Part shown: positions 5,949 to 31,932 of the stretch, piece by piece
How positions within the stretch are numbered: the stretch's first letter is position 1
Layout: each line of letters begins with the position of its first letter
Origin: an uncultured Pseudomonadota bacterium
GTDB taxonomy: Bacteria > Pseudomonadota > Alphaproteobacteria > Rs-D84
Length of the DNA: 34,830 nucleotides
Assembly: GCA_949288265.1 (NCBI GenBank)
Contig: CASEJM010000018.1
Location: 1 to 34,830 of the forward strand
Direction of reading: 5' to 3'
Made by a program: the position numbers and the translations under genes
Notes under the pieces: model-generated
Databases searched by the model: none
The model's input: only the letters and a program-made list of their open reading frames with translations
Told to the model about the DNA's origin: nothing

Positions 5949-6707
5949 TTATATTGCTCTAACAATTCTACAAAACGTAACGCCGTAAATTTCTGCTGCA
6001 CCTGCTTTCTTTAGAACCCTATATAACTCTGCAAACGTAGCACCTGTCGTCATAACGTCATCTACTAACAAAATCTTACGCCCGCGAATTTTATCGGGCT
6101 TTAAAACATCAAATACCCCATGAACATTTTCTTTACGTTGTGCGGCATTTTTATGTCCTATATCTGGACGATATTTACGATAAATACTATTTAAATCTAA
6201 ATTAATTCCAAAAGCCCTTGCAATTGGGCGCGCCAATAAAGTCGCTTGATTATAACCACGATGAAAAAGACGCCTATATGCCAAAGGGACTGGAATTACG
6301 ACGTCTGGTTTAATATCCGCGTCACGCAAAGCCCATATCATAGCTCTTGCCATAAATGCGGCATACTTTATCCGACCGCTATGCTTAAACGGCAACATTG
6401 CTGTTCTTGAAGCCTCATCATATACGCAAGCAGACCTTATCAAATCCAACACGCAAATACCCGACGCACAACTAGGACATTTCGGGTGATTTCCTAAATC
6501 TAAATTTGCAGGAAACGGGTATCCACATTTTTCGCATTTTGGATTTCCAATCCAATTAAAAGACGTCCAACAGTCTGCGCACAATTCACCATTCATAGAA
6601 ACAGGTTCACCACATAACGGGCACGCAGCAGGAAATAAAAATTCGATAAAAAAACGCGCAAATTTTGAAATTGATTTTTTTGCGCGTTTAACATTTTCTT
6701 TTACCAA
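5949..6707 (-). CDS. comF: ComF-family phosphoribosyltransferase-like protein
   Basis: A 252-aa ComF homologue, linked to DNA uptake and handling of incoming single strands in competent bacteria. Two four-cysteine zinc ribbons are visible: Cys29, 32, 43, 46 and Cys58, 61, 77, 80. The PRPP-binding loop ILLVDDVMTTGAT is at 212-224. The start is TTG at 6707, overlapping the stop of the upstream gene by seven bases; no ATG occurs before the first zinc cysteines, so a non-ATG start or translational coupling is required. It is last in the run ftsW-murG-VSR protein-comF. No clear terminator is seen before the convergent 133-aa gene. Confidence 0.92.
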   Translation of the reverse strand: MVKENVKRAKKSISKFARFFIEFLFPAACPLCGEPVSMNGELCADCWTSFNWIGNPKCEKCGYPFPANLDLGNHPKCPSCASGICVLDLIRSACVYDEASRTAMLPFKHSGRIKYAAFMARAMIWALRDADIKPDVVIPVPLAYRRLFHRGYNQATLLARPIARAFGINLDLNSIYRKYRPDIGHKNAAQRKENVHGVFDVLKPDKIRGRKILLVDDVMTTGATFAELYRVLKKAGAAEIYGVTFCRIVRAI

Positions 6708-8074
6708 GACATACTTCTATAAGTTTTTTTACTAATCGTATCACCGAAAATATCCCTACGTTGTTTAGTCAACGTTTCATACTGATCCAATGATATCATA
6801 CGTAAAACCAAACCCTCTTCATCTCGTTGAGACAAAACAGGTAAAATACGTTGTTCTGAAATTCCGTTATCACGTAATACTTGTTCTACGATTGCTAAAC
6901 GACGGGCAGCCAACTTACGCGCTTCGGAATCATTTACAACACTTTGTGGTATAGAAACCTGAACGGCACGTGTTGGGTTACTTAATACAATACCAGAATA
7001 TTCGGTCAACAAGTTGTAATTATCACGGGACAACGCCGCATCTTCATTACGGAATTTTATTTTAATTTCCAACGGACGAATGCCACCTGCTTCCGACAAA
7101 TCACGTTGAGATTTAAAACCTTCTGCGTTTGCCGTCATATCACTTGCTTCATCAAATCTATCATCTATTTGAAACGTAGACAAATGCTTATTTTCCGATA
7201 AGAAAGTCTTTCTAAAAGCCTTACGCAGTTCACTTGGGCTCATCTGAGTCATTTCATCACGCGTCGTAATTATACGCGGTGATTCAGCACGCTTAACGGC
7301 CCGCACGACAACGTCATCAGATGCATCATTCATAGGAACCACCATACGAGACAACATTACCTCTTCTTCCTTAGAAGCAGAAGCATCGGCAATTTTTTTA
7401 TCTTCATCTGGTCTAGAAACCACGCCACGTGATACAACACGACGGGATTGAACACTTTCAACAGGTCTGACAACTTCGCTTACGCTTTCTTCGGCGCGTT
7501 TTTGTAATTCATTTAATCTAGCAATCTGAACATCTAATTCTGACAAAGGTTGTCCTGCTTTATCAGATTGTACTATTGACACAGGTTCGGTGCTACGAGC
7601 GCTTAATAACCTTTGGGACGCCCCATCCAAACTTTCTTCTGGCAGCGCATCATCTGAACGTATAACAGAAAACTCTTGTGGTGCAGGCAACCGAAGCGGC
7701 ATAACATCCGACGTAGAATGCGCCCATAAATCAGAACTAGGTCTACGAGGTGAAAGCACATCTGCTGATGCGATGATTTGTTCACCTGCATCCATCGACA
7801 TAGCCGGCTGTACCGATTGATTCACGGTACTACGAGAAACGACACCACGATTTACATTTTCAGCACGCGTAACTTTTCCGTCATTATTATCACTAGATGC
7901 AACAACAGGTTCTGATTTTTTTACCTGCGTTTCAACTTTTTTTAAAACCGGTTCACCAAACGCAGCCCGCGCCGACACCCCCCCAGCAGCAACGTTTACG
8001 ATTGGTAAGTTCACGCCTGCCACTGCAGGCAACACTACAAACAGCGATAATACAGAGATTGCAATCTGTCGCAT
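6701..8074 (-). CDS. Exported VSR-motif protein with a divergent OmpA-like C-terminus
   Basis: A 457-aa protein with a Sec signal peptide (cleavage likely after PAVAG, residue 20). Residues 30-280 are low-complexity and charged and contain the motif VVSR at 78-81, 213-216 and 218-221, also found in the two large exported proteins at 25524 and 28845. Residues 334-425 resemble an OmpA-like peptidoglycan-binding domain (IKIKFRNEDAALS, then SNPTRAVQVSI and AARRLAIVEQVLRDNGIS), but the usual GHTD segment is replaced by SVVNDSE, so wall binding is uncertain. The Shine-Dalgarno is AAGGAAGGAAAG. It overlaps comF by seven bases and follows murG. No named function is known to me. Confidence 0.8.
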   Translation of the reverse strand: MRQIAISVLSLFVVLPAVAGVNLPIVNVAAGGVSARAAFGEPVLKKVETQVKKSEPVVASSDNNDGKVTRAENVNRGVVSRSTVNQSVQPAMSMDAGEQIIASADVLSPRRPSSDLWAHSTSDVMPLRLPAPQEFSVIRSDDALPEESLDGASQRLLSARSTEPVSIVQSDKAGQPLSELDVQIARLNELQKRAEESVSEVVRPVESVQSRRVVSRGVVSRPDEDKKIADASASKEEEVMLSRMVVPMNDASDDVVVRAVKRAESPRIITTRDEMTQMSPSELRKAFRKTFLSENKHLSTFQIDDRFDEASDMTANAEGFKSQRDLSEAGGIRPLEIKIKFRNEDAALSRDNYNLLTEYSGIVLSNPTRAVQVSIPQSVVNDSEARKLAARRLAIVEQVLRDNGISEQRILPVLSQRDEEGLVLRMISLDQYETLTKQRRDIFGDTISKKTYRSMSW

Positions 8075-16003: not shown

Positions 16004-17311
16004 TTATTTTTTTAGTGAGGCGTACCATTTTTTTAGGTTTCCCCACATAATTTGTAGATTCTTTTTCGTCGATTCATAATACTTCTCAGGAATTTCCACA
16101 TTGGCAAACAAAGTTTTTACCAATGCGGGTATCATTCCCATAAACATAGAAATAAATAGCCCCATTAAAAGAATCGTTATAAAACTATCGTTTTTCATTA
16201 ACAACCCGTCCATTAAAATGGTTGAATCATTTTCTGATAGCGCCAAAGCCAACCTATCTGCCCCATTCCACTTTCCAAAAACAGCGTTTAAGAACATGAT
16301 AGAAAACGTTACGAATACGCCGACAAGTGCTATCCCTGCCGTTGCTTTTATCACATCATCTATCATCGTTTTTATATTACTTTTTCCATCAGGAAATATT
16401 GGCCACCCTTTAAATAACCAAGACATCAGCATAAACGGCAGCATGATTAAATCCATTGATAATTTTATAAATACCTCTAAAAAATATATTGGTATCGGCA
16501 ATAAAGCGAAAAAGAATAATAAAAGAATCAATAAACCCGCAAAGAAAATTGGTACATTTGGGAAAATCGGTATATTCCATAAAAGATGATGCATATATTC
16601 CTCATTAAAAGCCATATTCAACATTGTCCACCCCACGGTCATACCTAGCCCCGTCATCTGATGAACGTTTGCTATTTCGCAGGTTAAATTATGCTGTAAC
16701 CGAGGAGAAAAAGCCCCGGAATTTGCCGCGTCAACACTTGCGACTGCAGGATCTGCAACAGCGGTTGCAACAACGCATTTTGCAAATTCATCGTTTCCTG
16801 ATACAACTCTATTTAAAGACAAGCCCACGTTAAAAATCGGTTCTATTACGATGCTGGTAATCAAACGCGGTAACGGAACAACCAACAAAGCAGTAACAAA
16901 AGCAAGCTTAATGAATTTTGTACTAAAATCACTAACAACACCCCAAGGTTCTTCTATCTTTGCGTTTATAAAACCAGAAAACAATTTCCAACCAAACCAT
17001 AAGGCCATCAGAACCACAGAAAACGGTAAAATTACAGAACTAAGCGCACTATAAACCCGCGGTATCAGACCAGACATCGTCGCCATCACATCATAAAACA
17101 TCTGACACGACCAACAACTGCTAAAGAAGTTCAGCGCATCCGCCATATTTACAGGAGCAGCAGTTCTATATATTGAAAAACCTGCAATTACGCCAAGCCC
17201 GGCGATTGTCCCTACGACGAACGGTGCAACCGCCCCCGCCGAAAACGGCAAGAATGATAAAAAAACTATCCAAAACTTTTTTAACTTATTCATTGTTTTT
17301 AAGTATATCAT
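16004..17311 (-). CDS. VirB6/TrbL-like type IV secretion membrane protein (A)
   Basis: A 435-aa polytopic inner-membrane protein with a signal-like N-terminus (ending SAGAVA). After a periplasmic segment containing CWSCQMF it has spans separated by PRLITSIVIEP, a soluble loop with two cysteines, then a cluster of strongly hydrophobic segments and a basic tail. This layout fits the VirB6/TrbL family, which forms part of the inner-membrane channel of type IV secretion systems. It shares the CxxC-x2-F and PR-x-ITSI-x2-EP motifs with the protein at 18654. ATG at 17311 has AGGG six bases ahead; the ATG at 17293 has none. It is transcribed away from the other four. Confidence 0.75.
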   Translation of the reverse strand: MIYLKTMNKLKKFWIVFLSFLPFSAGAVAPFVVGTIAGLGVIAGFSIYRTAAPVNMADALNFFSSCWSCQMFYDVMATMSGLIPRVYSALSSVILPFSVVLMALWFGWKLFSGFINAKIEEPWGVVSDFSTKFIKLAFVTALLVVPLPRLITSIVIEPIFNVGLSLNRVVSGNDEFAKCVVATAVADPAVASVDAANSGAFSPRLQHNLTCEIANVHQMTGLGMTVGWTMLNMAFNEEYMHHLLWNIPIFPNVPIFFAGLLILLLFFFALLPIPIYFLEVFIKLSMDLIMLPFMLMSWLFKGWPIFPDGKSNIKTMIDDVIKATAGIALVGVFVTFSIMFLNAVFGKWNGADRLALALSENDSTILMDGLLMKNDSFITILLMGLFISMFMGMIPALVKTLFANVEIPEKYYESTKKNLQIMWGNLKKWYASLKK

Positions 17312-17326
17312 ATTTTGCCCTAAATG

Positions 17327-17335
17327 TGATATAAT
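17327..17335 (+). promoter_or_regulatory. Extended -10 promoter of the VirB6-like operon
   Basis: TGATATAAT with hexamer 17330-17335, 26 bases before the ATG at 17362. It lies in the 50-base gap between the divergent VirB6-like genes. Confidence 0.65.
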
Positions 17336-17361
17336 TGAAAAGATAAAATAATATAAAGAGA

Positions 17362-18657
17362 ATGTCGGGACTTAAAAAAACTTTTCTATCCGTACTTTTA
17401 CGCGTACTGCCCGCGGTGTTTTTTATATGCATTCTACTTTCACCAAGTTTTGCTTATGCCGAGAATCGTACAATAGTTGACGCCTTAAACTTAGCACCGC
17501 TGATACCGACCATACTAGACGCTTTGATGACCGTTGCAACGGGTGGATATGAATTCTTTGTCGGAAACGGTACCGGTATAATTTATATTCTTGTTTGGGG
17601 ATTTTTGGCTGTATCACTTTCTTTATACGTATTGAAAATGTATTTTCCAAAACTATGGGTATCGTTTTTCGGTTTTTCTGGTGGCGGCGAAATGATTGAA
17701 GGCGTAGATGGTATGCAAATTGCCACCAATATCATTAAACCGGCACTTCGTGCAATAATAGCCGTCACAGTATTATTGCAACTTAAACCAATTTATTTGA
17801 CAGAATGGTTAATAAATCCATTTCTGCAATTCGGTTCTTTATACACACAAAGCATAACTGAAACAATAAACTCTTCTGGTATTAACGCCCCAAAAATAGA
17901 ATGCCCACCATCAATAATCGAGCAAAACTGGATAACTAAATCAAGCTGTGAGTTTTTAGTTCAACCAGTATCTGACATATCTTATGCAAACAACACAATT
18001 ATCAAACGCGGTTTTGATTTTATTAACCGCGGTTTACGCGGGTTGATAACGCTTATACCGCATGGTGGCGAAGACTTTTTAAACTTCATTACAGGTATAA
18101 TACTTGTATTTACTTTCATTTCTAGCAACCTATTTATGGCATTGCTAATAATTCAAGCAATATTCAATTTCGGTATGGCACTTATACTTTACCCATTCCA
18201 GGTATTAACTTACGTTGTTAAACCAAGTGAAAAGTGGTTGGACATATGGCCCGCATTTAACGGTATAACGAAATCATTGCAGAAAATCGTAATAACTATG
18301 ATTTCATGCTCTTTTATATTATGTGTAAACATCGCGATAATAAAATCTTTATTCAGATGGAATTCATCCATATTTGTTGTTGCCGCGGGTGGAACGGCAA
18401 CTTCAAACGTACCGGTAACAGTAAACAGTGCACTTGGTTTCGGGGAACATTCTATTTTATGGCTATCTGCGATATTAACTTTCTACCTTATGTTCCATAT
18501 TTTCAACCTGACCAAAGAAAAATTAAATTCGTACGTAGGTTCTGGTATGGATAAAATGTATAATAAGGTAATAAGTGATTCAAAAATACTAGCAGCACGA
18601 ACAAAAAAAGCAAAATCGGCAGTCAATACAGTAGTCGGATGGTTTAAAAACAAATGA
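17362..18657 (+). CDS. VirB6/TrbL-like type IV secretion membrane protein (B)
   Basis: A 431-aa polytopic membrane protein with an N-terminal signal sequence (ending SFAYA). A first group of spans (about residues 70-140) is followed by a loop with three cysteines and a second hydrophobic core from about residue 230. LKPIYLTEWLINP occupies the place of the PR-x-ITSI-x2-EP motif of its relatives. The tail is basic (KKAKSAVNTVVGWFKNK). AAAGAGA lies just before the ATG. It opens a four-gene operon; its TGA stop overlaps the next ATG as ATGA. Assignment rests on topology, paralogy and clustering. Confidence 0.72.
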   Translation: MSGLKKTFLSVLLRVLPAVFFICILLSPSFAYAENRTIVDALNLAPLIPTILDALMTVATGGYEFFVGNGTGIIYILVWGFLAVSLSLYVLKMYFPKLWVSFFGFSGGGEMIEGVDGMQIATNIIKPALRAIIAVTVLLQLKPIYLTEWLINPFLQFGSLYTQSITETINSSGINAPKIECPPSIIEQNWITKSSCEFLVQPVSDISYANNTIIKRGFDFINRGLRGLITLIPHGGEDFLNFITGIILVFTFISSNLFMALLIIQAIFNFGMALILYPFQVLTYVVKPSEKWLDIWPAFNGITKSLQKIVITMISCSFILCVNIAIIKSLFRWNSSIFVVAAGGTATSNVPVTVNSALGFGEHSILWLSAILTFYLMFHIFNLTKEKLNSYVGSGMDKMYNKVISDSKILAARTKKAKSAVNTVVGWFKNK

Positions 18658-19874
18658 ACGAAATAATAAATCCTTTAATTGACAAAGGTGTACAGTGTTG
18701 GGGCTGTGACATATTTGACCGATTATTTCAGATTGTCTCTGAAACGGCGGCTGCGGTATATGATAAACTTGCAGTATTTTGTGTCGTTCTATTTTTAGTA
18801 TTATTTGCTTTCTATGTAATAAACGCAGTATGGAAAAATATGAAGAACGATATTTCTGATCCTTTTTATCAGAAATCTATAAAACCCGTATTTATAAATT
18901 CAATCGTAGCTTTAACATTTTTAAGTATTGGAATAGCACTTCCACGTTTCATTACAAGCATAACATTCGAACCTGTTGCTGATATTACCCTTATCTATAC
19001 ACAGAACATGTTGAAAACTGATAATGAAACGATAAACGAACAAGTACACTATCAACCACAAGAGATGTCTGATGACGGTTTCTACCGCCCACAATTACGC
19101 GATAAAATTATACTGCTTATGAAAACAACCATAACGCAATTTCAATCATATATGAAACTTGGTATTGCGGTAATGGATAAAGCCTTTTCTTTAAACGCCT
19201 TATTAGGAATAGGGTCTTTAATTAAGCACATAATGTTATTTTTCATAGGGGTCTATTTATTTTACGGTTTCTTTAAGTTCTTTATTCGTTTCTGTTTTTA
19301 CTTCGTGGACATAATCATTGCAATGACTTTCTTTGCTTTTTTCTTCCCCTTATCGTTAATACTTGTAGGGTTTAAAAGCGGTGACGCCCCAAACTGGCTT
19401 TCTTCTCTTGGAAAAAACGTTGGAACAAATCAATTTAAGAAATTAATAGAGTCTATAATTGGTCTTGCATCTGCCGTAATGACTTACATAATACTGATGA
19501 TAATTATAGCAAAATTCTTTTCTGAACCTGGGCAAAGCACATCAGAAATAATGGAACTTATTACAACAGGGCAAATTTTTTCGGGTGATTTATCCGAAGA
19601 AAATTTAGCGGCAATGACACTTGGTTCATGCGTTATATTAGTATATGTGTTAAATTTCATATATGATCAAATTCCGCAAGTAACCTCTATGATACTGGAC
19701 TCATTTGGTGTATCATCAGAAAATGCATTAAGTGAAGAATTGGCAGAAGGTGCAATGGGTATAACTAAAAATATAATTAATATTGCAAAAAATACCGGAA
19801 AAAATATCTTAAACAAAGGTAAGAACGAAGAAAGCAAAAAGAAAGAAGACGGTACTAAAAAGAACGAAAAATGA
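18654..19874 (+). CDS. VirB6/TrbL-like type IV secretion membrane protein (C)
   Basis: A 406-aa polytopic protein without a classical signal peptide. CWGCDIFDRLF near residue 15 and PRFITSITFEP near residue 103 match the protein at 16004. A second hydrophobic core follows (about residues 170-300), rich in phenylalanine. The C-terminus is strikingly lysine-rich (KGKNEESKKKEDGTKKNEK), a probable cytoplasmic tail. It overlaps both neighbours by four bases (ATGA), indicating translational coupling and matched production of the family members. Confidence 0.72.
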   Translation: MNEIINPLIDKGVQCWGCDIFDRLFQIVSETAAAVYDKLAVFCVVLFLVLFAFYVINAVWKNMKNDISDPFYQKSIKPVFINSIVALTFLSIGIALPRFITSITFEPVADITLIYTQNMLKTDNETINEQVHYQPQEMSDDGFYRPQLRDKIILLMKTTITQFQSYMKLGIAVMDKAFSLNALLGIGSLIKHIMLFFIGVYLFYGFFKFFIRFCFYFVDIIIAMTFFAFFFPLSLILVGFKSGDAPNWLSSLGKNVGTNQFKKLIESIIGLASAVMTYIILMIIIAKFFSEPGQSTSEIMELITTGQIFSGDLSEENLAAMTLGSCVILVYVLNFIYDQIPQVTSMILDSFGVSSENALSEELAEGAMGITKNIINIAKNTGKNILNKGKNEESKKKEDGTKKNEK

Positions 19875-21307
19875 AAGCTAAACTAATTATGATTGCCATC
19901 AAGTTTATTATGGGCGCAATTGCGTTAGGTATAGGCATATGGTATTTATCTTCTTCTATTGGCGGTGCCGCAATAACATATACAAGCCTTGAAGGTTTTA
20001 TGGGGGCAATTGGCGTAACTAACGGAAATATTGCTTCGTCGAATGGCTGCTTTTTATGCGGATATATTTCACAATTATTTGCCGTAATCGGTGATGCTGC
20101 AGAAATGTTCTGGGACGCAATGGTTGATAACATATGGATATTACTATCTATCGGATTTGGTATATTTTTACTTGTTTATACTGCGCAATACATTTTTGAC
20201 GCGGCAAAAAAAACTGCAACACTTGATGAAAATGAGAAAAAACTAGAATTCGCTGCATGGTTCGACAAAGTATGGCGCCAAGGAGCAAGAGTTTTAATAG
20301 TCGGTGCATTAATGGGTGCACTTGGAATGGGTGGAAACGCTGCTTTACGCACAGTCGCAAACATTACAATAACTCCCGTTATGTTTGTAGGTGCAGAATT
20401 GTCTATGGCTGCGACGGGGGTATCAAGTGCGGCACAATGTGGCGCACTTACAGAACCGAACGAAACCACAGACATATTAAATCCGATATTACAACCATTC
20501 ATGTGCGTTATGGGGAATATTAACAGTGTTATGCTGGCTGGTGCCGCCGGTGGTTTTTCACTTATGAATTACGCTTGGTTGGACTTAGGTGGTGGTGTAT
20601 TTACATGGCTAGCGGGGCTTTCATTGGTCATATTGTTTTTAATCATAGGTTTTGATTTAGTATTTCAAATTCTTTCTGTAGTATTTAAGTTGGTCTTTTT
20701 AATCATATTTTTGCCACTTTTACTAGCCGCCGCGGCATTTGAACAGACTTGGTCTTTGGCAAGTGGGGTTACAAAAAATGCAATAAATATGTTGGTTAAT
20801 TCCGCAATACAAATAGTCGGCATAACATTAAAAGTTATTATAACTTACGCAATTATTGCATATGCAGCGGATTCTTACTTCCCCGGTCCAAACGATGGTT
20901 ATAGCGCAATATTACCACCACTGTTAGGTCAAGAAATTGAAAATCCTGATGCTCAAACGATGTCAGTTATAAATGTGTTTTCTACATGTGAACAAGTGGC
21001 GACCGTTGACGGAGAAATGGATAAAGATAAATTTAAAGCTTGTTTTACAGCGCAGCGCACCCAAGTAGAAAACAAGTATCCCGGTGCTTTTAATTTCATG
21101 AAAGACGGTTGGGATTTCATGCTAATGACAATATTACTGTTCGCGTTATACTTTTACGCAATCAAACCAAAAGTTGATAGTATCATAACAGCCGGTGGTA
21201 AAGAAAAATTTGATTTTGGCACATGGACAAAAAATTTAGGTAAAAAAATATGGAATTCACCTAAACAAATATTTGAATTGATATCAAGTGCAATGGGTAA
21301 AAAGTAA
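19871..21307 (+). CDS. VirB6/TrbL-like type IV secretion membrane protein (D)
   Basis: A 478-aa polytopic protein. A signal-anchor-like N-terminus is followed by a periplasmic segment with GCFLCGYISQLF, the same CxxC position as in proteins A and C. A long alanine- and glycine-rich hydrophobic core covers about residues 200-340, and a periplasmic loop with two cysteines precedes a last span near 415. This alanine/glycine-rich core is the part most like canonical VirB6. It overlaps protein C by four bases and protein E by one (TAATG). Confidence 0.74.
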   Translation: MKAKLIMIAIKFIMGAIALGIGIWYLSSSIGGAAITYTSLEGFMGAIGVTNGNIASSNGCFLCGYISQLFAVIGDAAEMFWDAMVDNIWILLSIGFGIFLLVYTAQYIFDAAKKTATLDENEKKLEFAAWFDKVWRQGARVLIVGALMGALGMGGNAALRTVANITITPVMFVGAELSMAATGVSSAAQCGALTEPNETTDILNPILQPFMCVMGNINSVMLAGAAGGFSLMNYAWLDLGGGVFTWLAGLSLVILFLIIGFDLVFQILSVVFKLVFLIIFLPLLLAAAAFEQTWSLASGVTKNAINMLVNSAIQIVGITLKVIITYAIIAYAADSYFPGPNDGYSAILPPLLGQEIENPDAQTMSVINVFSTCEQVATVDGEMDKDKFKACFTAQRTQVENKYPGAFNFMKDGWDFMLMTILLFALYFYAIKPKVDSIITAGGKEKFDFGTWTKNLGKKIWNSPKQIFELISSAMGKK

Positions 21308-22605
21308 TGAAATTGTTAAAGAAAATCTTTAATAACTTAATTGCAGCTGTTATTGCGGCATTATTAATGACGCCCGTTACCGCCGTCGCAGAAACAAACG
21401 TACCTTTTACAGAAATTGGTGATTATGGTGATTGGTTAACCACAGATAACTTATACAAATTTAATCTTAACATTGGTTCTGATATGACAGAGTTTCAAGA
21501 AACCTTTCAAAAGAACCAACTTGTACCAGATTACGTGCCTATTGAAGCTAAACTAGGTTTTGCAATGATGGACGCTTTGTCCATACTTGCAGATATTCTT
21601 GATTCATCATTAGTACGCTTCGCTATCATCTTTATGATTATTGCATATATATTATGGATAATGTTTGAAGCATATAACATGATGACAAAAGGTTCCAGCG
21701 CAATGGAACTTGGAATTAATATCGTAAAGAAAGGCGCCATAATTGCAATATGGTCTATCATATTAGCCCAAGGGCCCGCTCAGGTATTTATGTGGATTAT
21801 GGGGCCGATACTAAGTGTTGCAACATATATGTCTGATTTAATATTAAATGCAGTAACAAATACTGTTGGGTTAACGTTACCAGACACATGTAATGCCATA
21901 CGAGAATATGCTGCTGCCAACGCTTCTTCAGGAATGATAATAGACCCTAAAGCTGCTGCTGATATGATATGCGTACCGACAAGATTATCTGGATTTTTTA
22001 CGACGGCAATTGCTATCGGTTGGAAATGGATGATTTCTGGTATCGGAATCAGTGCTTTTACTATGTTTGTTGGGGCCGCGTTCATAGTTTTATTTATATA
22101 TAACGCCTTCAAATTTACCTTGATGGGACTTGGGGTTATAATGGATTTATTTTTATCTGTAATAATGCTTCCATTCACTGCTATTGCAGAAACTATAAAT
22201 AAAACATCCTACAACGGTATAGTTGGAGATATATTTAACGGCTTCCTAGGCTTATTTAAACCAGAATCATTATCTAATCAAATTCAACGTTTTATAAACG
22301 CTGCTATTTATTTTGTATCACTATCCATAGTCATAGCTGTATGCGCCGCAATGCTATCAGGCGCAATCAGAGTAGATCTTTCTTCAGAAATACCATCTTT
22401 AGATAATTCGGGCTTTATGATTACCTTCCTTACAGGTGTATTAGTTGCATATCTGGCGAACAAAACATCAAAAATAGCTGAAGATTTAGGTGGAAAAGTA
22501 AACGAAAGCTTTAGTAAACAATTTGGCGACGATATAAAACATTGGTGGAACCAATTATATGGTAAAGGTAAAAACATTGTAGAAATGTTTCGAGACAAAA
22601 AATAA
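21307..22605 (+). CDS. VirB6/TrbL-like type IV secretion membrane protein (E)
   Basis: A 432-aa polytopic protein with a signal peptide (ending PVTAVA) and a soluble periplasmic segment up to about residue 80. Spans follow (ILWIMFEAY, VFMWIMGPILSVA), then a loop with two cysteines and a second core. The tail is charged (KHWWNQLYGKGKNIVEMFRDKK). It lacks the CxxC motif of A, C and D. It is the last gene of the operon; its stop is 22 bases from the convergent uvrD stop, with only A/T-rich sequence between. Confidence 0.72.
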   Translation: MKLLKKIFNNLIAAVIAALLMTPVTAVAETNVPFTEIGDYGDWLTTDNLYKFNLNIGSDMTEFQETFQKNQLVPDYVPIEAKLGFAMMDALSILADILDSSLVRFAIIFMIIAYILWIMFEAYNMMTKGSSAMELGINIVKKGAIIAIWSIILAQGPAQVFMWIMGPILSVATYMSDLILNAVTNTVGLTLPDTCNAIREYAAANASSGMIIDPKAAADMICVPTRLSGFFTTAIAIGWKWMISGIGISAFTMFVGAAFIVLFIYNAFKFTLMGLGVIMDLFLSVIMLPFTAIAETINKTSYNGIVGDIFNGFLGLFKPESLSNQIQRFINAAIYFVSLSIVIAVCAAMLSGAIRVDLSSEIPSLDNSGFMITFLTGVLVAYLANKTSKIAEDLGGKVNESFSKQFGDDIKHWWNQLYGKGKNIVEMFRDKK

Positions 22606-25496: not shown

Positions 25497-25525
25497 AAAA
25501 AAAACGGTGTAAAACACCGTTTTTT
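25497..25525. terminator. Bidirectional terminator between dnaQ and the 815-aa gene
   Basis: ACGGTGT-AAA-ACACCGT (25504-25520) with A and T runs on either side serves two convergent genes. Confidence 0.88.
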
Positions 25526-27971
25526 AATCTTCTGGAACACATTCGTATTCAGTTTCATTTTTATTAACTTGTTTATAACCACTATCACACAGGCAAACAT
25601 TGTTAGTCATCTTATATCCTGTGTCGCATACACATAATCCACTACTACCTCTTCTTGAATGTGCAGGACATGATGCGTAACAATACGAACCAACTCTATC
25701 ATAATTCTCAATACAACGGCATCTTTCATTTGTACATTGGGTATTGCTTTGACCAAATTCACTTCCACAAGTTGGGTCATACCTAGAATTATCCGGACAT
25801 AGTAATGACTGATAAAACATTTCAGATATATTATCAATGCAATTATTATCGTTATGCCCACCATCTTTAGTATTACATGAATTATCCGTATCTTTATCAA
25901 ATACAGCATAAGCGCATGTTAAGGCGACATTACGACAAGCCCCGCGCATAACATTATAAATTCCTCCAATACTTGCGCTTGTAGACCAAGCATTAACCTG
26001 CGTTACCTGCTGATTATAACAATTAGCTATGTCCAACATACAATTAGACGCATAGTCAGATATAATTTGCTGCTGCTCCGCTTTAATATTTACCATAGCA
26101 CGTTGAACGTAATTAATAACGACATCATTAAAACTTATGTAATTTCCGCGATCATCATAAGTATAAGCCTGACATTTATCAAGAACTGCGCGACACAAAC
26201 CTTCATCGGTAACTTCTTGTTTTGTACCAATTTTCTGCAACAAATATTTTACTATACACGCACCGTTATTACCCACTGTTTTTTCATCAGTAACCTCAGC
26301 GATACAATCGTCATAACTAATTTGCATATTATAAGAATCTTGCAGGAATTTTTTTGTTATATCTGCATTATTATAATTTTCCATAAAATCGGTAATATCA
26401 GTAATATCTTGCCCTAAAACAACCTCACCATTTTCATCAATATATCTTTTGGTTGGGTCCAAACATTTGGTGTAATCTGCGCCACATACCATCTCGTCTG
26501 TCATACATGTGTCCAAAGCAGCAATACAACCTTTTGCATCGTATTGATTTTTATTTTCTAAAACCGCCAATCTAGCTTTTTGCAACATCAAATTTGCGCT
26601 ACGAACATTTGAAACCAAGGTTTCATTCATTTTTGTTAAACCTTGTTCATATGAAATGCAATCCTTATCAATGGCCAGATCGTAATTTGCCGTTATCTGA
26701 TCAATGTTTGCCCCGGCAGATTCGCACTGAGTCAAAACAGTTTTACATCTATTCTTTGCGGCATTATATAAATCTTTACCGCGTAAATTAGAAAAATTCG
26801 TCGTCCCCATATTCAAAAAGTCAAGATTGAATATATCCGCAATGTCAGAAGAGAAATCAAGATCCATATCTAAACCAAATGCAGAAGATCCATAACTAGA
26901 CGTAGTTGCACTTGCCGGGTCGCGGATAAGAGCTTCTATTTCTTCCAACATATTACGGGTTTCAGATGTATCTTTTGCACCGCTTAAAGCCTCTTCTGCT
27001 TCTGTTTCACTCATAATTGCTCGGATTTCATCTGCAGACAAACCGACATAACGAATTCGTTGGGCAACCTCATTTAATTGATTGTTTGCGTCCGTTACAG
27101 CCTCTTGAACGCGCGTATAGTTTGATAAATTAGAAGAGCAAGAACAACGCCCCTGATTAGAATCTATTACCGCACAGAATTGATCCATACAATCATTATA
27201 TTGCTGCTGACATGAAGAATTTAAATCAGAAGTTAAATCTAAACGTTGCTTTGCTTCTGCAATTGATTCAGCGGTTGCAACATTTGTCGTTGTTGTCGTC
27301 GTCACGGCACGCGACTGAACACCGCGAATTTCTTCATCAATATTAGAACCAGTTTTAATGTTAGTACCGGCAATAGTTGCACGTCCACCAACCTCTGCCG
27401 TAGAAGGTCGCAAAGTTAAACCAGCACGACGAACAGCAGGGTTATTATTTATACTTGCAGCTTCGACCCTTGGATTAAGCCCAACCGTATTCACAGTTGC
27501 TTCCAAATTTTCACGCGCAGAATTCGTACTAGTCTGAGAAATGCTTGATCTAGACGCAGCCCCACTTTTTACAGTATTCGCAGTTCCACGTCCAGTTGTA
27601 TTTGCTGTTGTAGTAGAGTCTAAATTTAACAAACGAGAACCAACCCGAATCATACTAGAATTATCTACAACATCATCGCTAACGGTTGTTGCACTACGAC
27701 TTATAACGCTACGTTCTGTATCGTTCCGTACATCTAAATCGTTTGAATCTTCTGCCCCGGCTTTTGAAGTTACAACTGTCGCTGCAGGTGTAGTTGTACG
27801 TGATACCTGAGCCCTAGAAACAGTACCAGCACCACGATTACTGGTACTAGTTTGATTATTAGAATTTCCTGTTGCCGGTACAACACGAGACACAGTTGTT
27901 ACAGTACCGTCTGCAAATGCAAACGGCGCAGTCAAAGCAATCAAGAAAAAGCACAAAGGCAATCTTCTCAT
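25524..27971 (-). CDS. Large exported cysteine-rich VSR-motif protein (paralogue 1)
   Basis: An 815-aa secreted protein of no family known to me. A signal peptide ends at about residue 20 (PFAFA). Residues 21-250 are serine/threonine-rich with VSR-type motifs (TVSR, QVSR, VISR). From 254 on there are 34 cysteines. The first module has Cys254, 261, 266, 276, 278; other pairs are spaced C-x6-C (409/416, 482/489/496/503, 593/600, 644/651, 679/686) in helical sequence. The end (768-811) is a short EGF-like stretch (CVCDTGYKMTN, CLCDSGYK). The ATG lies 11 bases after a TATAAT, with no Shine-Dalgarno. Its relative at 28845 shares the first module exactly, so the pair look like duplicated surface or periplasmic structural proteins. 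Confidence 0.8.
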   Translation of the reverse strand: MRRLPLCFFLIALTAPFAFADGTVTTVSRVVPATGNSNNQTSTSNRGAGTVSRAQVSRTTTPAATVVTSKAGAEDSNDLDVRNDTERSVISRSATTVSDDVVDNSSMIRVGSRLLNLDSTTTANTTGRGTANTVKSGAASRSSISQTSTNSARENLEATVNTVGLNPRVEAASINNNPAVRRAGLTLRPSTAEVGGRATIAGTNIKTGSNIDEEIRGVQSRAVTTTTTTNVATAESIAEAKQRLDLTSDLNSSCQQQYNDCMDQFCAVIDSNQGRCSCSSNLSNYTRVQEAVTDANNQLNEVAQRIRYVGLSADEIRAIMSETEAEEALSGAKDTSETRNMLEEIEALIRDPASATTSSYGSSAFGLDMDLDFSSDIADIFNLDFLNMGTTNFSNLRGKDLYNAAKNRCKTVLTQCESAGANIDQITANYDLAIDKDCISYEQGLTKMNETLVSNVRSANLMLQKARLAVLENKNQYDAKGCIAALDTCMTDEMVCGADYTKCLDPTKRYIDENGEVVLGQDITDITDFMENYNNADITKKFLQDSYNMQISYDDCIAEVTDEKTVGNNGACIVKYLLQKIGTKQEVTDEGLCRAVLDKCQAYTYDDRGNYISFNDVVINYVQRAMVNIKAEQQQIISDYASNCMLDIANCYNQQVTQVNAWSTSASIGGIYNVMRGACRNVALTCAYAVFDKDTDNSCNTKDGGHNDNNCIDNISEMFYQSLLCPDNSRYDPTCGSEFGQSNTQCTNERCRCIENYDRVGSYCYASCPAHSRRGSSGLCVCDTGYKMTNNVCLCDSGYKQVNKNETEYECVPED

Positions 27972-27982
27972 ATTATTATGTA

Positions 27983-27991
27983 ATTATAACA
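27983..27991 (-). promoter_or_regulatory. Extended -10 promoter of the 815-aa gene
   Basis: Minus-strand TGTTATAAT (hexamer 27988-27983), followed by TA as in the promoter of the paralogue (31272-31264). It ends 11 bases before the ATG. Confidence 0.6.
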
Positions 27992-28040
27992 CAACTAAGC
28001 CCGACAAAAAAGATGAAAAAATTATTATTTACAAATTAAA

Positions 28041-28069
28041 TAAAAATCCGCCAATTGGCGGATTTTTTT
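28041..28069. terminator. Terminator of rplU-rpmA
   Basis: AATCCGCC-AATT-GGCGGATT is a perfect palindrome with flanking A and T runs, lying directly after the rpmA stop codon on the minus strand. Confidence 0.9.
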
Positions 28070-28334
28070 ATTTAGCCTCGGACTCAGGAATAACAGAAAC
28101 AGTTTTTCTATCACCCTGACCTTTTTTGAATTTCACAATGCCTGCAATTTTTGCAAACAAAGTATGATCCTTACCCATACCAACATTCAAACCTGGGTGT
28201 ACAGACGTGCCACGCTGACGAATGATGATATTTCCTGGAATAACACGAGTGCCGCCAGATTTCTTAACACCTAAACGACGCCCTGGTGTATCGCGTCCGT
28301 TCGCTGACGCAGAACCCATTTTCTTATGTGCCAT
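28068..28334 (-). CDS. rpmA: 50S ribosomal protein L27
   Basis: An 88-aa L27: [20 protein letters not shown] at the start, then [20 protein letters not shown] and [16 protein letters not shown]. The N-terminal tail that reaches the peptidyl transferase centre is present without the cleavable extension of Firmicutes. AAAGGAG lies ahead of the ATG. It follows rplU by 48 bases, a gap filled by a hairpin. Confidence 0.97.
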
Positions 28335-28347
28335 AATTAAACTCCTT

Positions 28348-28386
28348 TTAATTTCTGATTAATCTGATTTATACACCAGAAATTAA
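28348..28386 (-). promoter_or_regulatory. Intercistronic hairpin between rplU and rpmA
   Basis: TTAATTTCTG (28348-28357) and CAGAAATTAA (28377-28386) are perfect reverse complements with a 19-base loop. In the message the 5' arm overlaps the rplU stop codon and the 3' arm abuts the rpmA Shine-Dalgarno, so it may tune rpmA translation or mRNA stability. It lacks a T run, so it is not a terminator. Confidence 0.5.
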
Positions 28387-28682
28387 CCTTTAATTTCCGT
28401 AATTTTTAATACAGTTATATACTGACGATGCCCATGCGTGCGACGATAGTTCTGACGACGCTTTTTCTTAAACACCAAAACTTTATCCGTACGTTTCTGT
28501 TCCAAAACTTCAGCAACAACTTTGGCACCATCAACAAAAGGTGTACCAACTTTATCATCAAGCATTAAAACCTGATCGAATTCAATCTTACCTTCGGCAT
28601 TCAGCTTTTCAACTTTTACAATATCACCCTGCTTTACGCGATATTGTTTACCACCGGTTTGGAAAATTGCAACATTGCTCAT
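28383..28682 (-). CDS. rplU: 50S ribosomal protein L21
   Basis: A 99-aa L21: FQTGGKQYRVKQGDIVKVEK at the start, and KKKRRQNYRRTHGHRQYITV near the end, the RNA-binding signature. AAGAGAAAG precedes the ATG. With rpmA it forms the usual two-gene unit; obgE, often next, is absent, because a terminator follows rpmA. Confidence 0.97.
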   Translation of the reverse strand: MSNVAIFQTGGKQYRVKQGDIVKVEKLNAEGKIEFDQVLMLDDKVGTPFVDGAKVVAEVLEQKRTDKVLVFKKKRRQNYRRTHGHRQYITVLKITEIKG

Positions 28683-28734
28683 TTTCTTTCTCTTTTGTAT
28701 TGTTCTTGTTCTATTTTGTCTAAAAGTTTCTACA

Positions 28735-28762
28735 AAAGTATCATTTTTTTATAAAAAGTCAA
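28735..28762 (-). promoter_or_regulatory. Promoter of rplU-rpmA
   Basis: Minus-strand TTGACT (28762-28757), a 16-base spacer and TACTTT (28740-28735) with an extended TG, leaving a leader of about 45 bases. Confidence 0.55.
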
Positions 28763-28803
28763 GCGTTTTGCATAATTTTTTCTACAAAACGTATTACAAA
28801 CGA

Positions 28804-28829
28804 TAAAAAAACCGCCCCAACGGGCGGTT
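28804..28829 (-). terminator. Terminator of the 777-aa gene
   Basis: ACCGCCC-CAAC-GGGCGGT (28811-28828), followed on the minus strand by a T run (plus-strand A run 28805-28811). It lies 16 bases after the stop codon. Confidence 0.85.
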
Positions 28830-28844
28830 AGAATATTAAATAAC

Positions 28845-31178
28845 TTATTGACTTACACAGGCACCATTTTGAACGGTATAACCAGATTTACACGATACCA
28901 AGCTGCATCCGCTCCAAGACTGAGTACCTGTATTCCACGTCTGTGATGCTGATTCTGCATTTGGATCAGAATGTATACATGATTTTGTATTAGGTACGCA
29001 GCTATTTCCTTCTAAATGCTGCCCTGCTGGGCAACTTGTCGCCGACCAGCCACCGTTTGTATTTATACTGGACCAATTACGTACACCATCAATACCAACG
29101 CTTTGTAAGCATGCTTCACGTAACACAGGAGAAGAACCCTCTACAGCATCTCTTGCATATGAATCGTCCAAGATTTCTGCCAAAGTTATAATATTACGAC
29201 ATGTATTTGTTTCATAATCAGTCGTATTATCACACTTCTGTGTAGAATCATCTTCTTTATCTATAACCGCCAGCAATGAATTATTTGGCGCACTGCAAAT
29301 CATTTCTTCATAGCAATGAGGAACGTTTGCAACCTGGGCACAATATGTCTTTATACGGCTTGTACTCCAAGAAGTATTTGTCGTTTCTTGTGTCGTATAA
29401 CAATCATACAATTCTGCCAAACATTCGTTAAAGTTATTACGTGCCGTCTTATAATCACTTGCAATAGTTTCTTGTTCTTCTTGATAGAACTCTAAACGTT
29501 TTTGTTGCAAGGCCTGCTGTGCAGCAACTTTCTGATATCCTATATTCTGAGCAGTTGTGCTTAATTGCTCACCATACGCATCACAATCAGCATTCGCATC
29601 CAGCGCATATTTCTGCATGATACTACGACGCGCATCCGCAACCGGTTTACGTAAATCTGCATAAGGGTCACCAGAGGCAGTTGTGTAACCAAAGCACGTT
29701 GCAGAATTAGATGCAGTATAACCAGTACTCGGTTCAATAAAATCTAATTCATACGTACCTGTATTGGACACAGAAATATAACTATTATAATTATATGGGC
29801 ACTGCGAACGTCCGTTACCACATTTGTTACTGCCAGAAGGAGGCGTACCACACGCTTCATAAATACCATTAAAGCAAGAATCCAAAACGCGGTTACATAC
29901 GTTGTTATGGGCATATTCAAATAATTCATAGCCCCACGTTTCTGCCAAAGAATCTTTTAAATTATCAGCGTCTGCAAAAGCCCCATCTATACCAGCCAAA
30001 CTTCCAACAACGTTTGTAAGATTTTCAAAAGCAGATGTTGTGCTATCAACATCATCTGTTAATATTGTAAGCGTCTGTTCTTTAGCTTCTGCCCAAGACT
30101 GCAATGATGCTAAAATATCACTACCAGAACCATCTAACGAAGCAATATCGAAACCGAAGTTATTCCCTTCTTTCTTACAATACGATGGCGCAGAAGATTT
30201 ACTACACGAGCTATCAAACAAAGCATGTTGTTCGCACCAATCACCAAATTCATTATCAGACGCGGTACCGTTTTTACTTACATCTTTCCAAGAAACACAG
30301 TTCATAACTTTTTCTGCATCAGTTAATTGAAAGGCTTGACTTACATCTTTACCTTTAGTTGCAATTAACAGTGCTAATTCACCCGAAACTTGAATTAATT
30401 CTTCATTTGCTTTTTCCAATGCAGCTTCTGCTTCTGCGAAAGCTTTTACACGACCGGCACATGCGCAACGACGTTGCGCAGCATTACGTGCAGTACAAAT
30501 TTCATCCATACACGCATAATACGATTCCATACAGTTATTATAAGCTTCTGCAGAAATCAAACCAGTTGTAGAATCAATTATGTTTGAATAATTACCCGTA
30601 TACAACTTACTTTGCAAATAAGTATATGTATTAGTTGCAGCAGAATTACTGCCACGTATTGCGCTGCCTTGCAAAGAAATGCGTGCGACATTATTCGTAG
30701 CTGTACGCGAAACAACACTACGCGCCGCAGTAGCACCATTAGTAGCCGTAGTACGAGATACTACATTTCTTGGTGCCCCCCCCCTAGACACTGTTGCACT
30801 TGTCGCAGTTCCACGAGAACTTGATACACTTGGACGACCAGAAGCAGTAGAAACAGAACTTGTCGCAACTGTCGGGGCTGTTACAGTCCGAGAAGTTACA
30901 CCACGCGCAATCGTCGCAGAATTATTAGACGCTGTCGTACCGCGTGATACAACACTTGACGATGTATTACGTGCATTTGCCGGACGAGAAGAAGAACGAA
31001 CGCTGCCGTTGGATCTAGGCGACTGAACATTACTTGTATTAGTTACCATCGGCGCAATCGGGTCAGCAAATACTGCCCGCATAGATATTAACGTTGAGCA
31101 AACAAAGAATGCACCTGCCAGTAAAAATACTGTACCCATTGCATTCTTACAATGTTCTGCGAAATTACGGCTTTTCAT
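28845..31178 (-). CDS. Large exported cysteine-rich VSR-motif protein (paralogue 2)
   Basis: A 777-aa secreted protein. An N-terminal hydrophobic stretch (15-38, ending RAVFA) is a signal peptide with a long n-region. Residues 40-180 are serine/threonine/arginine-rich with VVSRG, VTSRT, TVSRG, VVSRT and VVSRT. From 216 there are 30 cysteines. The module Cys216, 223, 228, 238, 240 has exactly the spacing of the 815-aa paralogue, and later C-x6-C pairs (428/435, 453/460, 586/593) and a WSTS string (604-607) also match it. The end is a cysteine-rich tail (CPAGQHLEGNSC, CKSGYTVQNGAC). AGGAG precedes the ATG and the leader is about 78 bases. Function unknown; a surface or periplasmic scaffold stabilised by disulfides is my inference. 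Confidence 0.8.
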   Translation of the reverse strand: MKSRNFAEHCKNAMGTVFLLAGAFFVCSTLISMRAVFADPIAPMVTNTSNVQSPRSNGSVRSSSRPANARNTSSSVVSRGTTASNNSATIARGVTSRTVTAPTVATSSVSTASGRPSVSSSRGTATSATVSRGGAPRNVVSRTTATNGATAARSVVSRTATNNVARISLQGSAIRGSNSAATNTYTYLQSKLYTGNYSNIIDSTTGLISAEAYNNCMESYYACMDEICTARNAAQRRCACAGRVKAFAEAEAALEKANEELIQVSGELALLIATKGKDVSQAFQLTDAEKVMNCVSWKDVSKNGTASDNEFGDWCEQHALFDSSCSKSSAPSYCKKEGNNFGFDIASLDGSGSDILASLQSWAEAKEQTLTILTDDVDSTTSAFENLTNVVGSLAGIDGAFADADNLKDSLAETWGYELFEYAHNNVCNRVLDSCFNGIYEACGTPPSGSNKCGNGRSQCPYNYNSYISVSNTGTYELDFIEPSTGYTASNSATCFGYTTASGDPYADLRKPVADARRSIMQKYALDANADCDAYGEQLSTTAQNIGYQKVAAQQALQQKRLEFYQEEQETIASDYKTARNNFNECLAELYDCYTTQETTNTSWSTSRIKTYCAQVANVPHCYEEMICSAPNNSLLAVIDKEDDSTQKCDNTTDYETNTCRNIITLAEILDDSYARDAVEGSSPVLREACLQSVGIDGVRNWSSINTNGGWSATSCPAGQHLEGNSCVPNTKSCIHSDPNAESASQTWNTGTQSWSGCSLVSCKSGYTVQNGACVSQ

Positions 31179-31263: not shown

Positions 31264-31272
31264 ATTATAACA
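31264..31272 (-). promoter_or_regulatory. Extended -10 promoter of the 777-aa gene
   Basis: Minus-strand TGTTATAAT (hexamer 31269-31264), then TTA as in the 815-aa paralogue's promoter. The leader can form small GC-rich hairpins such as CCGG-AACGC-CCGG (31199-31211). Confidence 0.55.
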
Positions 31273-31331
31273 TTTTTAGCGCACTCTGTAAATAAGAAAA
31301 CCCGCAATCACAAAGCGGAATTTTTTATTAT

Positions 31332-31368: not shown

Positions 31369-31932
31369 ATGAAAAAGTATATTGCTTTATTTTTATCTTT
31401 ATTAAGTATACCCGCTTTGGCGGACACAGACAGAATCAACCCAATGTTTGGTACCGACACTGATAACGCCATTGCGCTATACGCATCTCAAGGAACAAGT
31501 CCTGGTTCTTTATTAAAATTAATAAATCCATTTTTGTGGAATTTTGAACCGATGACAAATATCATGCTGCAATACAGTCAGCCAATGGAGATATTCAGAC
31601 TGCCTGCTCGTATGAATATAGCTTTAGTTCAAAACTTTGGTTACAGTCATGATGATGGTTTGAATTTTATTGCAGCAGGTATTTCTTGGGACATATCACT
31701 TTTAGATTGGCACGGATTTTATATAGGCGTTGGAATAGGTCCTTATATGAGGGATTCAGGTGATAGATATGTAGAAAGTCGTTTGGTATTTGGTGAACGG
31801 GTATTCATAGGAAAAAATATTTCTGACCGTTGGCGCATAGAATGGTTTACACAACACTTTTCTAACGGCAGTTTTACAGAAATAAATCGCGGTTTTAATT
31901 TTACGGGACTTGCAATAAATTACAGCTTTTAA
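31369..31932 (+). CDS. PagL-like lipid A 3-O-deacylase
   Basis: A 187-aa outer-membrane protein: signal peptide (cleavage after IPALA) and alternating beta-strand sequence ending in aromatic residues (AINYSF), typical of a small barrel. Near the C-terminus FTQHFSNGSFTEINRGFNF carries the His-x-Ser-Asn motif of PagL (His163, Ser165), which removes the 3-O acyl chain of lipid A and so dampens host recognition. The third catalytic residue cannot be placed with confidence. No Shine-Dalgarno is present and the -10 lies eight bases ahead, so it is probably leaderless. It is divergent from the 777-aa gene. It implies that the organism makes lipid A. Confidence 0.8.
   Translation: MKKYIALFLSLLSIPALADTDRINPMFGTDTDNAIALYASQGTSPGSLLKLINPFLWNFEPMTNIMLQYSQPMEIFRLPARMNIALVQNFGYSHDDGLNFIAAGISWDISLLDWHGFYIGVGIGPYMRDSGDRYVESRLVFGERVFIGKNISDRWRIEWFTQHFSNGSFTEINRGFNFTGLAINYSF

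Follow-up and report, generated by a model that had tools for sequence, protein, structure and literature searches.

The window analysed here, i.e. the whole stretch of 34,830 nucleotides forming positions 1 to 34,830 of contig CASEJM010000018.1 from an uncultured member of the Alphaproteobacteria (order Rs-D84), carries two long ORFs, P0001 and P0002. Both are situated on the minus strand, and the plus-strand reading is riddled with stops. The N-termini of the two products are hydrophobic and were judged by eye to be signal peptides. An artefact or a mis-called ORF was ruled out for both by their conservation in other genomes. The two genes and the features identified in and around them are as follows.

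25499-25525, minus strand: terminator-like hairpin 3' of P0001 (consensus match only)
25524-27971, minus strand: P0001, ORF for an 815-aa exported-looking family member; N-terminus judged by eye; 34 mature cysteines
25527-25877, minus strand: cysteine-rich C-terminal tail of P0001 (residues ~699-815), varying among orthologues and weakly EGF/TNFR-like in a few
26172-26195, minus strand: Cys593-x6-Cys600 of P0001 (CRAVLDKC), putatively paired with Cys489/Cys482; Cys593 was lost together with Cys489 three times
26463-26528, minus strand: second module of P0001, Cys482-x6-Cys489-x6-Cys496-Gly-x5-Cys503; Cys489 is the inferred partner of Cys593
26658-26660, minus strand: Cys438 of P0001, proposed partner of Cys276; one joint loss, 56/56 concordant
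26724-26747, minus strand: Cys409-x6-Cys416 of P0001, on a separate predicted helix, proposed partner of Cys254/Cys261
27138-27212, minus strand: module of P0001, Cys254-x6-Cys261-x4-Cys266-x9-Cys276-x-Cys278, invariant in 78/78 aligned sequences
27228-27896, minus strand: N-terminal linker of P0001 (residues ~26-248), rich in Ser, Thr, Ala, Asn and Arg, cysteine-free
28042-28067, minus strand: terminator-like hairpin 3' of rpmA (consensus match only)
28068-28682: rplU and rpmA (ribosomal proteins L21 and L27), between P0002 and P0001
28810-28829, minus strand: terminator-like hairpin 3' of P0002 (consensus match only)
28845-31178, minus strand: P0002, ORF for a 777-aa exported-looking family member; 30 mature cysteines; profile E = 1e-15
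30459-30533, minus strand: module of P0002, Cys216-Cys240, invariant in 45/45 aligned sequences
31264-31292, minus strand: promoter-like site 5' of P0002, TTTACA-17-TATAAT, with TG before the second hexamer (consensus match only)

The cysteine totals, which agree with the 34 and 30 given in the initial annotation, exclude residues 1-28, where one further cysteine is found in P0001 and two in P0002. When complete family members are pooled, the linker contains 26 cysteines per 25,592 residues, and its net charge lies between -6 and +16 in the nine long paralogues of the source genome (+4 in P0001 and +16 in P0002). The region from the module to the C-terminus is acidic, with a net charge of -36 in both proteins.

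Given the hairpin after rpmA, read-through from the ribosomal genes into P0001 appears improbable, and the terminator-like hairpins after P0002, rpmA and P0001 suggest that P0001 and P0002 are probably separate transcription units. Promoter-like sites in the region numbered 25, with 20.4 expected. The sole Rfam match in the window is a tRNA at 12-83. A gene for a PagL-like lipid A deacylase (31369-31932) is divergent from P0002, and an exported-looking protein with VVSR-type repeats, as in the linkers of the family, is encoded at 6701-8074; its OmpA-like match is weak and below the threshold.

The module C-x6-C-x4-C-x9-C-x-C has identical spacing in the two proteins (Cys254-278 in P0001 and Cys216-240 in P0002), as noted initially, and the cysteine run at 482, 489, 496 and 503 of P0001 is likewise exact. 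The motif C-x2-VL-x2-C indeed occurs in three places, namely at 409-416 and 593-600 in P0001 and at 428-435 in P0002. Counted as a DNA pattern, the module was found 11 times in the 796,882-base assembly, and the reversed pattern, which served as control, 0 times; chance origin is thereby ruled out. All 11 matches coincide with places found by the family profile. Heptad-spaced cysteines, described as frequent in the initial annotation, proved to be so: a spacing of 7 between successive cysteines occurs 57 times in the nine paralogues, against 9.8 expected when the cysteines are placed at random. Between positions 254 and 686 P0001 has 20 cysteines, each of them present in 76 to 78 of the 78 sequences in alignment A2 (P0001 of the window together with 77 P0001-type ORFs from 80 loci, partial and repeated ones omitted), and the variation in cysteine count among orthologues lies largely in the tail.

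A related second module, C-x6-C-x3-6-C-G-x3-5-C, was identified 11 times in 7 of the 129 ORFs of the fetched stretches of the source genome, with 0.05 expected after shuffling. These seven ORFs include three that are not members of the core family and look exported by eye; cysteine-rich, exported-looking proteins with the second module are encoded at L160 3843-6953, L161 7405-8991 and L161 9001-9870. The L161 genes are adjoined by one for a cysteine-rich exported protein with an OmpA domain (L161 5054-7399). Another cysteine-rich protein of the source genome, of 1,934 aa and with 152 cysteines (L023 4948-10752, C19), has Listeria-Bacteroides repeats and weak ephrin-receptor-like matches, and one stretch of it matches the P0002 tail.

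P0001 and P0002 are too divergent for either to retrieve the other in a direct genome search. The links between them are the module, a profile of other paralogues (P0002 aligns to the first third of it, E = 1e-15) and shared intermediates. In the source genome the family comprises nine long ORFs, one short member of 353 aa and one that is cut by a contig end, and the nine long members sum to 7,547 aa, i.e. nearly 3% of the 797-kb assembly. With P0001 as single query, relatives were found in 43 out of 59 genomes, namely the source genome, each of the 34 further genomes of its genus (with 3 to 17 matches) and 8 of the 18 from other families of the order; none of the 6 genomes outside the order had any. 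The A1 profile, made from eight paralogue cores, identified the family in 189 of the 190 genomes of the order Rs-D84, the exception being one genome of family f2, and in most genomes of the window's own family of the order it had 10 to 16 matches. In a class-wide sample of 289 genomes, 4 matched A1, all of them within the order, and the other 285 were without a match. As far as sampled, the P0001/P0002 family is large and confined to one bacterial order. No match was found on viral contigs searched with P0002 or on plasmids searched with the P0001 core, and with the A1 profile 23 stretches of viral contigs fitted a pattern, none of which was confirmed.

The P0001-like loci (best 80 of at least 545 confirmed) come mostly from gut metagenome assemblies labelled Alphaproteobacteria, the remaining labels among these 80 being Candidatus Enterousia, proteobacterium, Rickettsiales and bacterium. 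Enterousia has been assigned to the GTDB order Rs-D84, and the same paper describes genomes near 1 Mb that are devoid of a respiratory chain and of standard sugar, amino-acid or peptide transporters, a partner-dependent life being probable (PMC12306168). To judge by similarity, the window comes from Candidatus Enterousia or a near relative. In 41 of the best 80 loci, some of which are cut by contig ends, a P0002-type gene lies upstream of a P0001-type gene on the same strand; 3 loci have both types otherwise arranged, and a P0001-type gene alone is seen in 35, a P0002-type gene alone in 1. A compact form of 300-499 aa, which may be the ancestral gene, occurs in families f2 and f4 of the order. 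In the six f2/f4 neighbourhoods (L218, L219, L220, L221, L224 and L225), where it measures 300-474 aa, it adjoins hpf in five and rubrerythrin in five, and both in four of them. Neither hpf nor rubrerythrin was found beside the family gene in two f5/f6 neighbourhoods.

A preference of exported proteins for even numbers of cysteines is a published sign of disulfides (PMC7678975). Counting from the module to the C-terminus, and excluding exact duplicates and ORFs cut by contig ends, we found even numbers in 87 of 89 P0001 orthologues (even values from 22 to 108, odd ones 13 and 47). The same holds for 44 of the 45 P0002 orthologues and 22 of the 26 remaining members. The four odd cases among the latter make up a single orthologue group, with 29 cysteines in 4/4 (L018 3348-5939 and its orthologues in L200, L205 and L214); with this odd number, one thiol would stay free for a link to another protein. 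Same-locus ORFs with at least four cysteines were used as controls and divided by a crude filter for a signal-like start. Those lacking such a start were 77 even and 69 odd, and those possessing one were 72 even and 46 odd, a lean to even numbers that is far less than that of the family. Kinship was allowed for by comparing roughly independent pairs on a tree, which gave 14 equal counts, 27 even differences and 2 odd differences for P0001 (p = 8e-7), and 11, 9 and 1, respectively, for P0002 (p = 0.011). These counts support the view that the cysteines of the family are paired in disulfides.

Joint losses of cysteines were counted in 56 aligned members from six families of the order, on a tree built without the cysteine columns. 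P0001 orthologues were thinned, and two partial source-genome rows, two duplicates and the P0002-type members were left out; the tree, rooted at its midpoint, is an approximate one, and a distant row with C-x7-C was counted as present. Three pairs are concordant in 56/56 members, i.e. Cys254/Cys416, lost jointly twice (p = 2e-4, coinciding branches), Cys489/Cys593, with three joint losses (p = 5e-6), and Cys276/Cys438, with one (p = 0.009). The single loss of 276 and 438 falls on a branch where 489 and 593 disappeared as well, so that four of the six cysteines went together and the pair 276-438 is supported partly by elimination. Other coinciding pairs are not fully concordant, e.g. 254 and 416 each match 651 in 50/52. 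Cys556 and Cys572 co-vary in an earlier 47-member matrix. From these patterns we infer bonds 254-416 and 489-593 in P0001-type members. The idea put forward initially, that cysteine pairs join helix to helix, thus gains support from co-loss, for the P0001-type members, and from even parity.

The AlphaFold2 model of P0001 residues 236-815, made with 78 sequences, has a pLDDT of 79.5 and a pTM of 0.64, and is mostly helical to about residue 724, followed by a strand-rich tail. Its first 60 residues range from ~58 to 78, and residues ~325-395 are poor (353-396 below 50). The P0002 model is poor as a whole (pLDDT 65.2, pTM 0.43). In the P0001 model, Cys254, Cys261 and Cys266 are placed on one long helix, Cys409 and Cys416 on a second, Cys438 on a third and Cys482 and Cys489 on a fourth, with Cys593 and Cys600 at the ends of a short helix. 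This placement fits the antiparallel combinations of 254-416 with 261-409 and of 489-593 with 482-600, and the co-loss of 254/416, 489/593 and 276/438 likewise agrees with antiparallel helices that twin C-x6-C pairs hold together. Co-loss backs one bond in each twin set (Cys254/416 and Cys489/593); the second bonds, 261-409 and 482-600, are proposed from the geometry of the model only, and the antiparallel arrangement is likewise a putative one. A Foldseek search with the P0001 model as a single 580-aa piece gave a best E of 1.4, which is not significant, and VIA-align a best Z of 7.1, to unrelated helical proteins and in the range of common helix bundles. The P0001 tail weakly resembles 4-1BB (Z 3.1, 69 residues).

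Of 40 genomes of the order, 37 encode a DsbA-like member of the thioredoxin family. In the source genome it is encoded at L018 15799-16626 (C2), on the same contig as three paralogues and 4.7 kb past the nearest of them; the protein, which is hydrophobic at its N-terminus and contains a CPYC site, is recognised as DSBA by Pfam, its DsbG-type likeness being sub-threshold. The DsbB and VKOR models matched 0 of the 40 genomes of the order, and 6 and 3, respectively, of 14 control genomes. That neither DsbB nor VKOR was found, in cells described as non-respiring (PMC12306168), weighs most heavily against a routine disulfide explanation. The mature cysteines of the nine long paralogues sum to 283, which such a cell, lacking a recognisable DsbB or VKOR, would have to oxidise.

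The core of P0001 and P0002 stayed unnamed in Pfam, NCBIfam, PHROGs and the PDB sequences, where all matches were weak or sub-threshold. In agreement with the initial annotation, which knew no bacterial family with this pattern, the profile searches gave no family model covering the core. A literature search returned no description of the P0001/P0002 family among the matches listed, mention elsewhere being possible, and the family is apparently undescribed. The proposal of a new exported, disulfide-stapled helical family is supported by the order-wide distribution, the co-loss, the parity and the lack of a named match. To our knowledge, helices stapled by repeated C-x6-C pairs, as proposed here, have been described for no bacterial family. 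As for the tails, EGF, TNFR and ephrin models matched weakly in 1 of the 78 sequences each (E 1.5e-5 to 0.0063), none of them P0001, and Listeria-Bacteroides repeat models were also matched in single orthologues.

Taken as a whole, P0001 and P0002 can be read as order-specific exported proteins of the cell envelope with a stapled stalk and a binding tail, a reading for which we see the chances as evenly balanced. The signal peptide would lead into a flexible linker rich in Ser, Thr and Arg, after which come an acidic core of helices and, in many members, a cysteine-rich tail of variable sequence. After Sec export, the proteins would be oxidised by the DsbA-like CPYC enzyme, which is probably membrane-anchored. 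Two cysteines on the same face of a helix, at a distance of seven residues, would then bond with a second such pair on an antiparallel helix, giving two disulfides per hairpin, and the stapled core may form a stiff stalk that resists proteases. By threading through or binding the envelope, the linker would hold the core to the wall or the outer membrane, and the fast-changing, EGF/TNFR-like tail would face outward and bind the partner cells or host surface that bacteria of such reduced metabolism would rely on. The variability of the tail, together with the repeat likeness in single orthologues, lends support to the binding role. The cysteine-rich protein with an OmpA domain, the 1,934-aa repeat protein and the partner-dependent life proposed for the order (PMC12306168) also speak for this reading. 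We infer the envelope or surface position, the stalk and binding roles, the Sec route and the antiparallel geometry; the family probably builds or decorates the cell envelope. Counting against this reading are the negative DsbB and VKOR searches, the poor P0002 model and the poorly modelled stretch of P0001, the small number of joint losses, the orthologue group with an odd count and the even lean of exported-looking controls; nor was a surface anchor or secretion signal found.

The main rival to the stapled-stalk reading is cross-linked envelope armour, in which the proteins would form an intermolecular disulfide mesh, as in the chlamydial outer-membrane complex, and provide strength rather than binding. 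It can draw on the many cysteine-rich paralogues per genome, on the OmpA-domain cysteine-rich protein in the same genome, on the thiol left free in the 29-cysteine group and on the chlamydial precedent (PMC6752827). However, a near-universal even parity is expected of closed intramolecular pairs and is not needed by a mesh, and the peptidoglycan synthesis genes that are present in the window would make a substitute wall unneeded; we consider armour unlikely.

Cysteines could instead bind metal ions or clusters, the proteins storing or carrying metal or electrons, and spacings such as C-x-C and C-x4-C are also known from metal sites. The failure to find DsbB or VKOR in cells described as non-respiring (PMC12306168) would fit this as well, but the loss of cysteines in pairs and their even numbers, up to 108, suit disulfides better, and neither P0001 nor P0002 had a match to a metalloprotein family in Pfam or NCBIfam, making a metal-binding role very improbable in our view. 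A role in type IV secretion, as a surface part or a substrate of the system, is only slightly easier to credit and still improbable. At 16004-22605 in the window, near P0001, there are five consecutive genes for polytopic membrane proteins that look VirB6/TrbL-like by eye, with no Pfam match over the cut-off. Sequences like four of them occur in 26, 36, 39 and 41 of the 80 P0001-type loci, taken with flanks of at most 8 kb, and the fifth has a counterpart in 1/80. A VirB4 family member was found in 36 of 40 genomes, so that the order as a whole appears to have retained a type IV secretion system. Against a link with the family, other paralogues are situated on other contigs next to unrelated genes, the compact form adjoins hpf or rubrerythrin in the six f2/f4 neighbourhoods, and the VirB6 label, given by eye, is unsupported by Pfam.

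The reading as stapled envelope proteins can be taken a step further, to a private surface coat of the whole order. One ancestral twin-C-x6-C protein would have given rise to at least ten copies with diversified tails, oxidised by the DsbA-like enzyme, with electrons passing to an acceptor such as, perhaps, small disulfides supplied by the gut or by partner cells. This we offer tentatively, as a possibility that we rather doubt. As the nine long members take up nearly 3% of the assembly in a lineage stripped of much of its metabolism, they are likely to be central to the way of life of these uncultured gut bacteria. Co-loss and parity, moreover, yield direct, checkable predictions of named disulfides.

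Among known systems, EGF and TNF-receptor-like repeats share a likeness with the family that is limited to the C-terminal tails and does not extend to the helical core. The chlamydial proteins OmcA and OmcB resemble it in being exported and rich in cysteine, and their host likewise has a DsbA-type enzyme; adhesion is attributed to the basic N-terminal part of OmcB (PMC6752827 and PMC2229832). The P0001/P0002 core differs in being helical with heptad-spaced cysteines, in an even parity that favours intramolecular bonds and in that DsbB, described for Chlamydia trachomatis, was not found in 40 genomes of this order. The OmcA/OmcB family was absent from the Pfam and NCBIfam results, which holds only if these libraries carry such models. 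There is also a likeness in principle to the mitochondrial twin CX9C and twin CX3C proteins (CHCH and small Tim), in which two helices with cysteine pairs of fixed spacing are joined by two disulfides (PMC12114033); CX6C is described there for NDUFB10, together with CX11C. No CHCH model appeared in the Pfam results (E up to 0.1 and 0.01). Unlike these proteins, the members of the P0001/P0002 family are bacterial, exported and hundreds of residues long, with many further cysteines and a spacing of six rather than nine or three. We regard the family as a new one, which would work in principle like the twin CX9C proteins, without their spacing.
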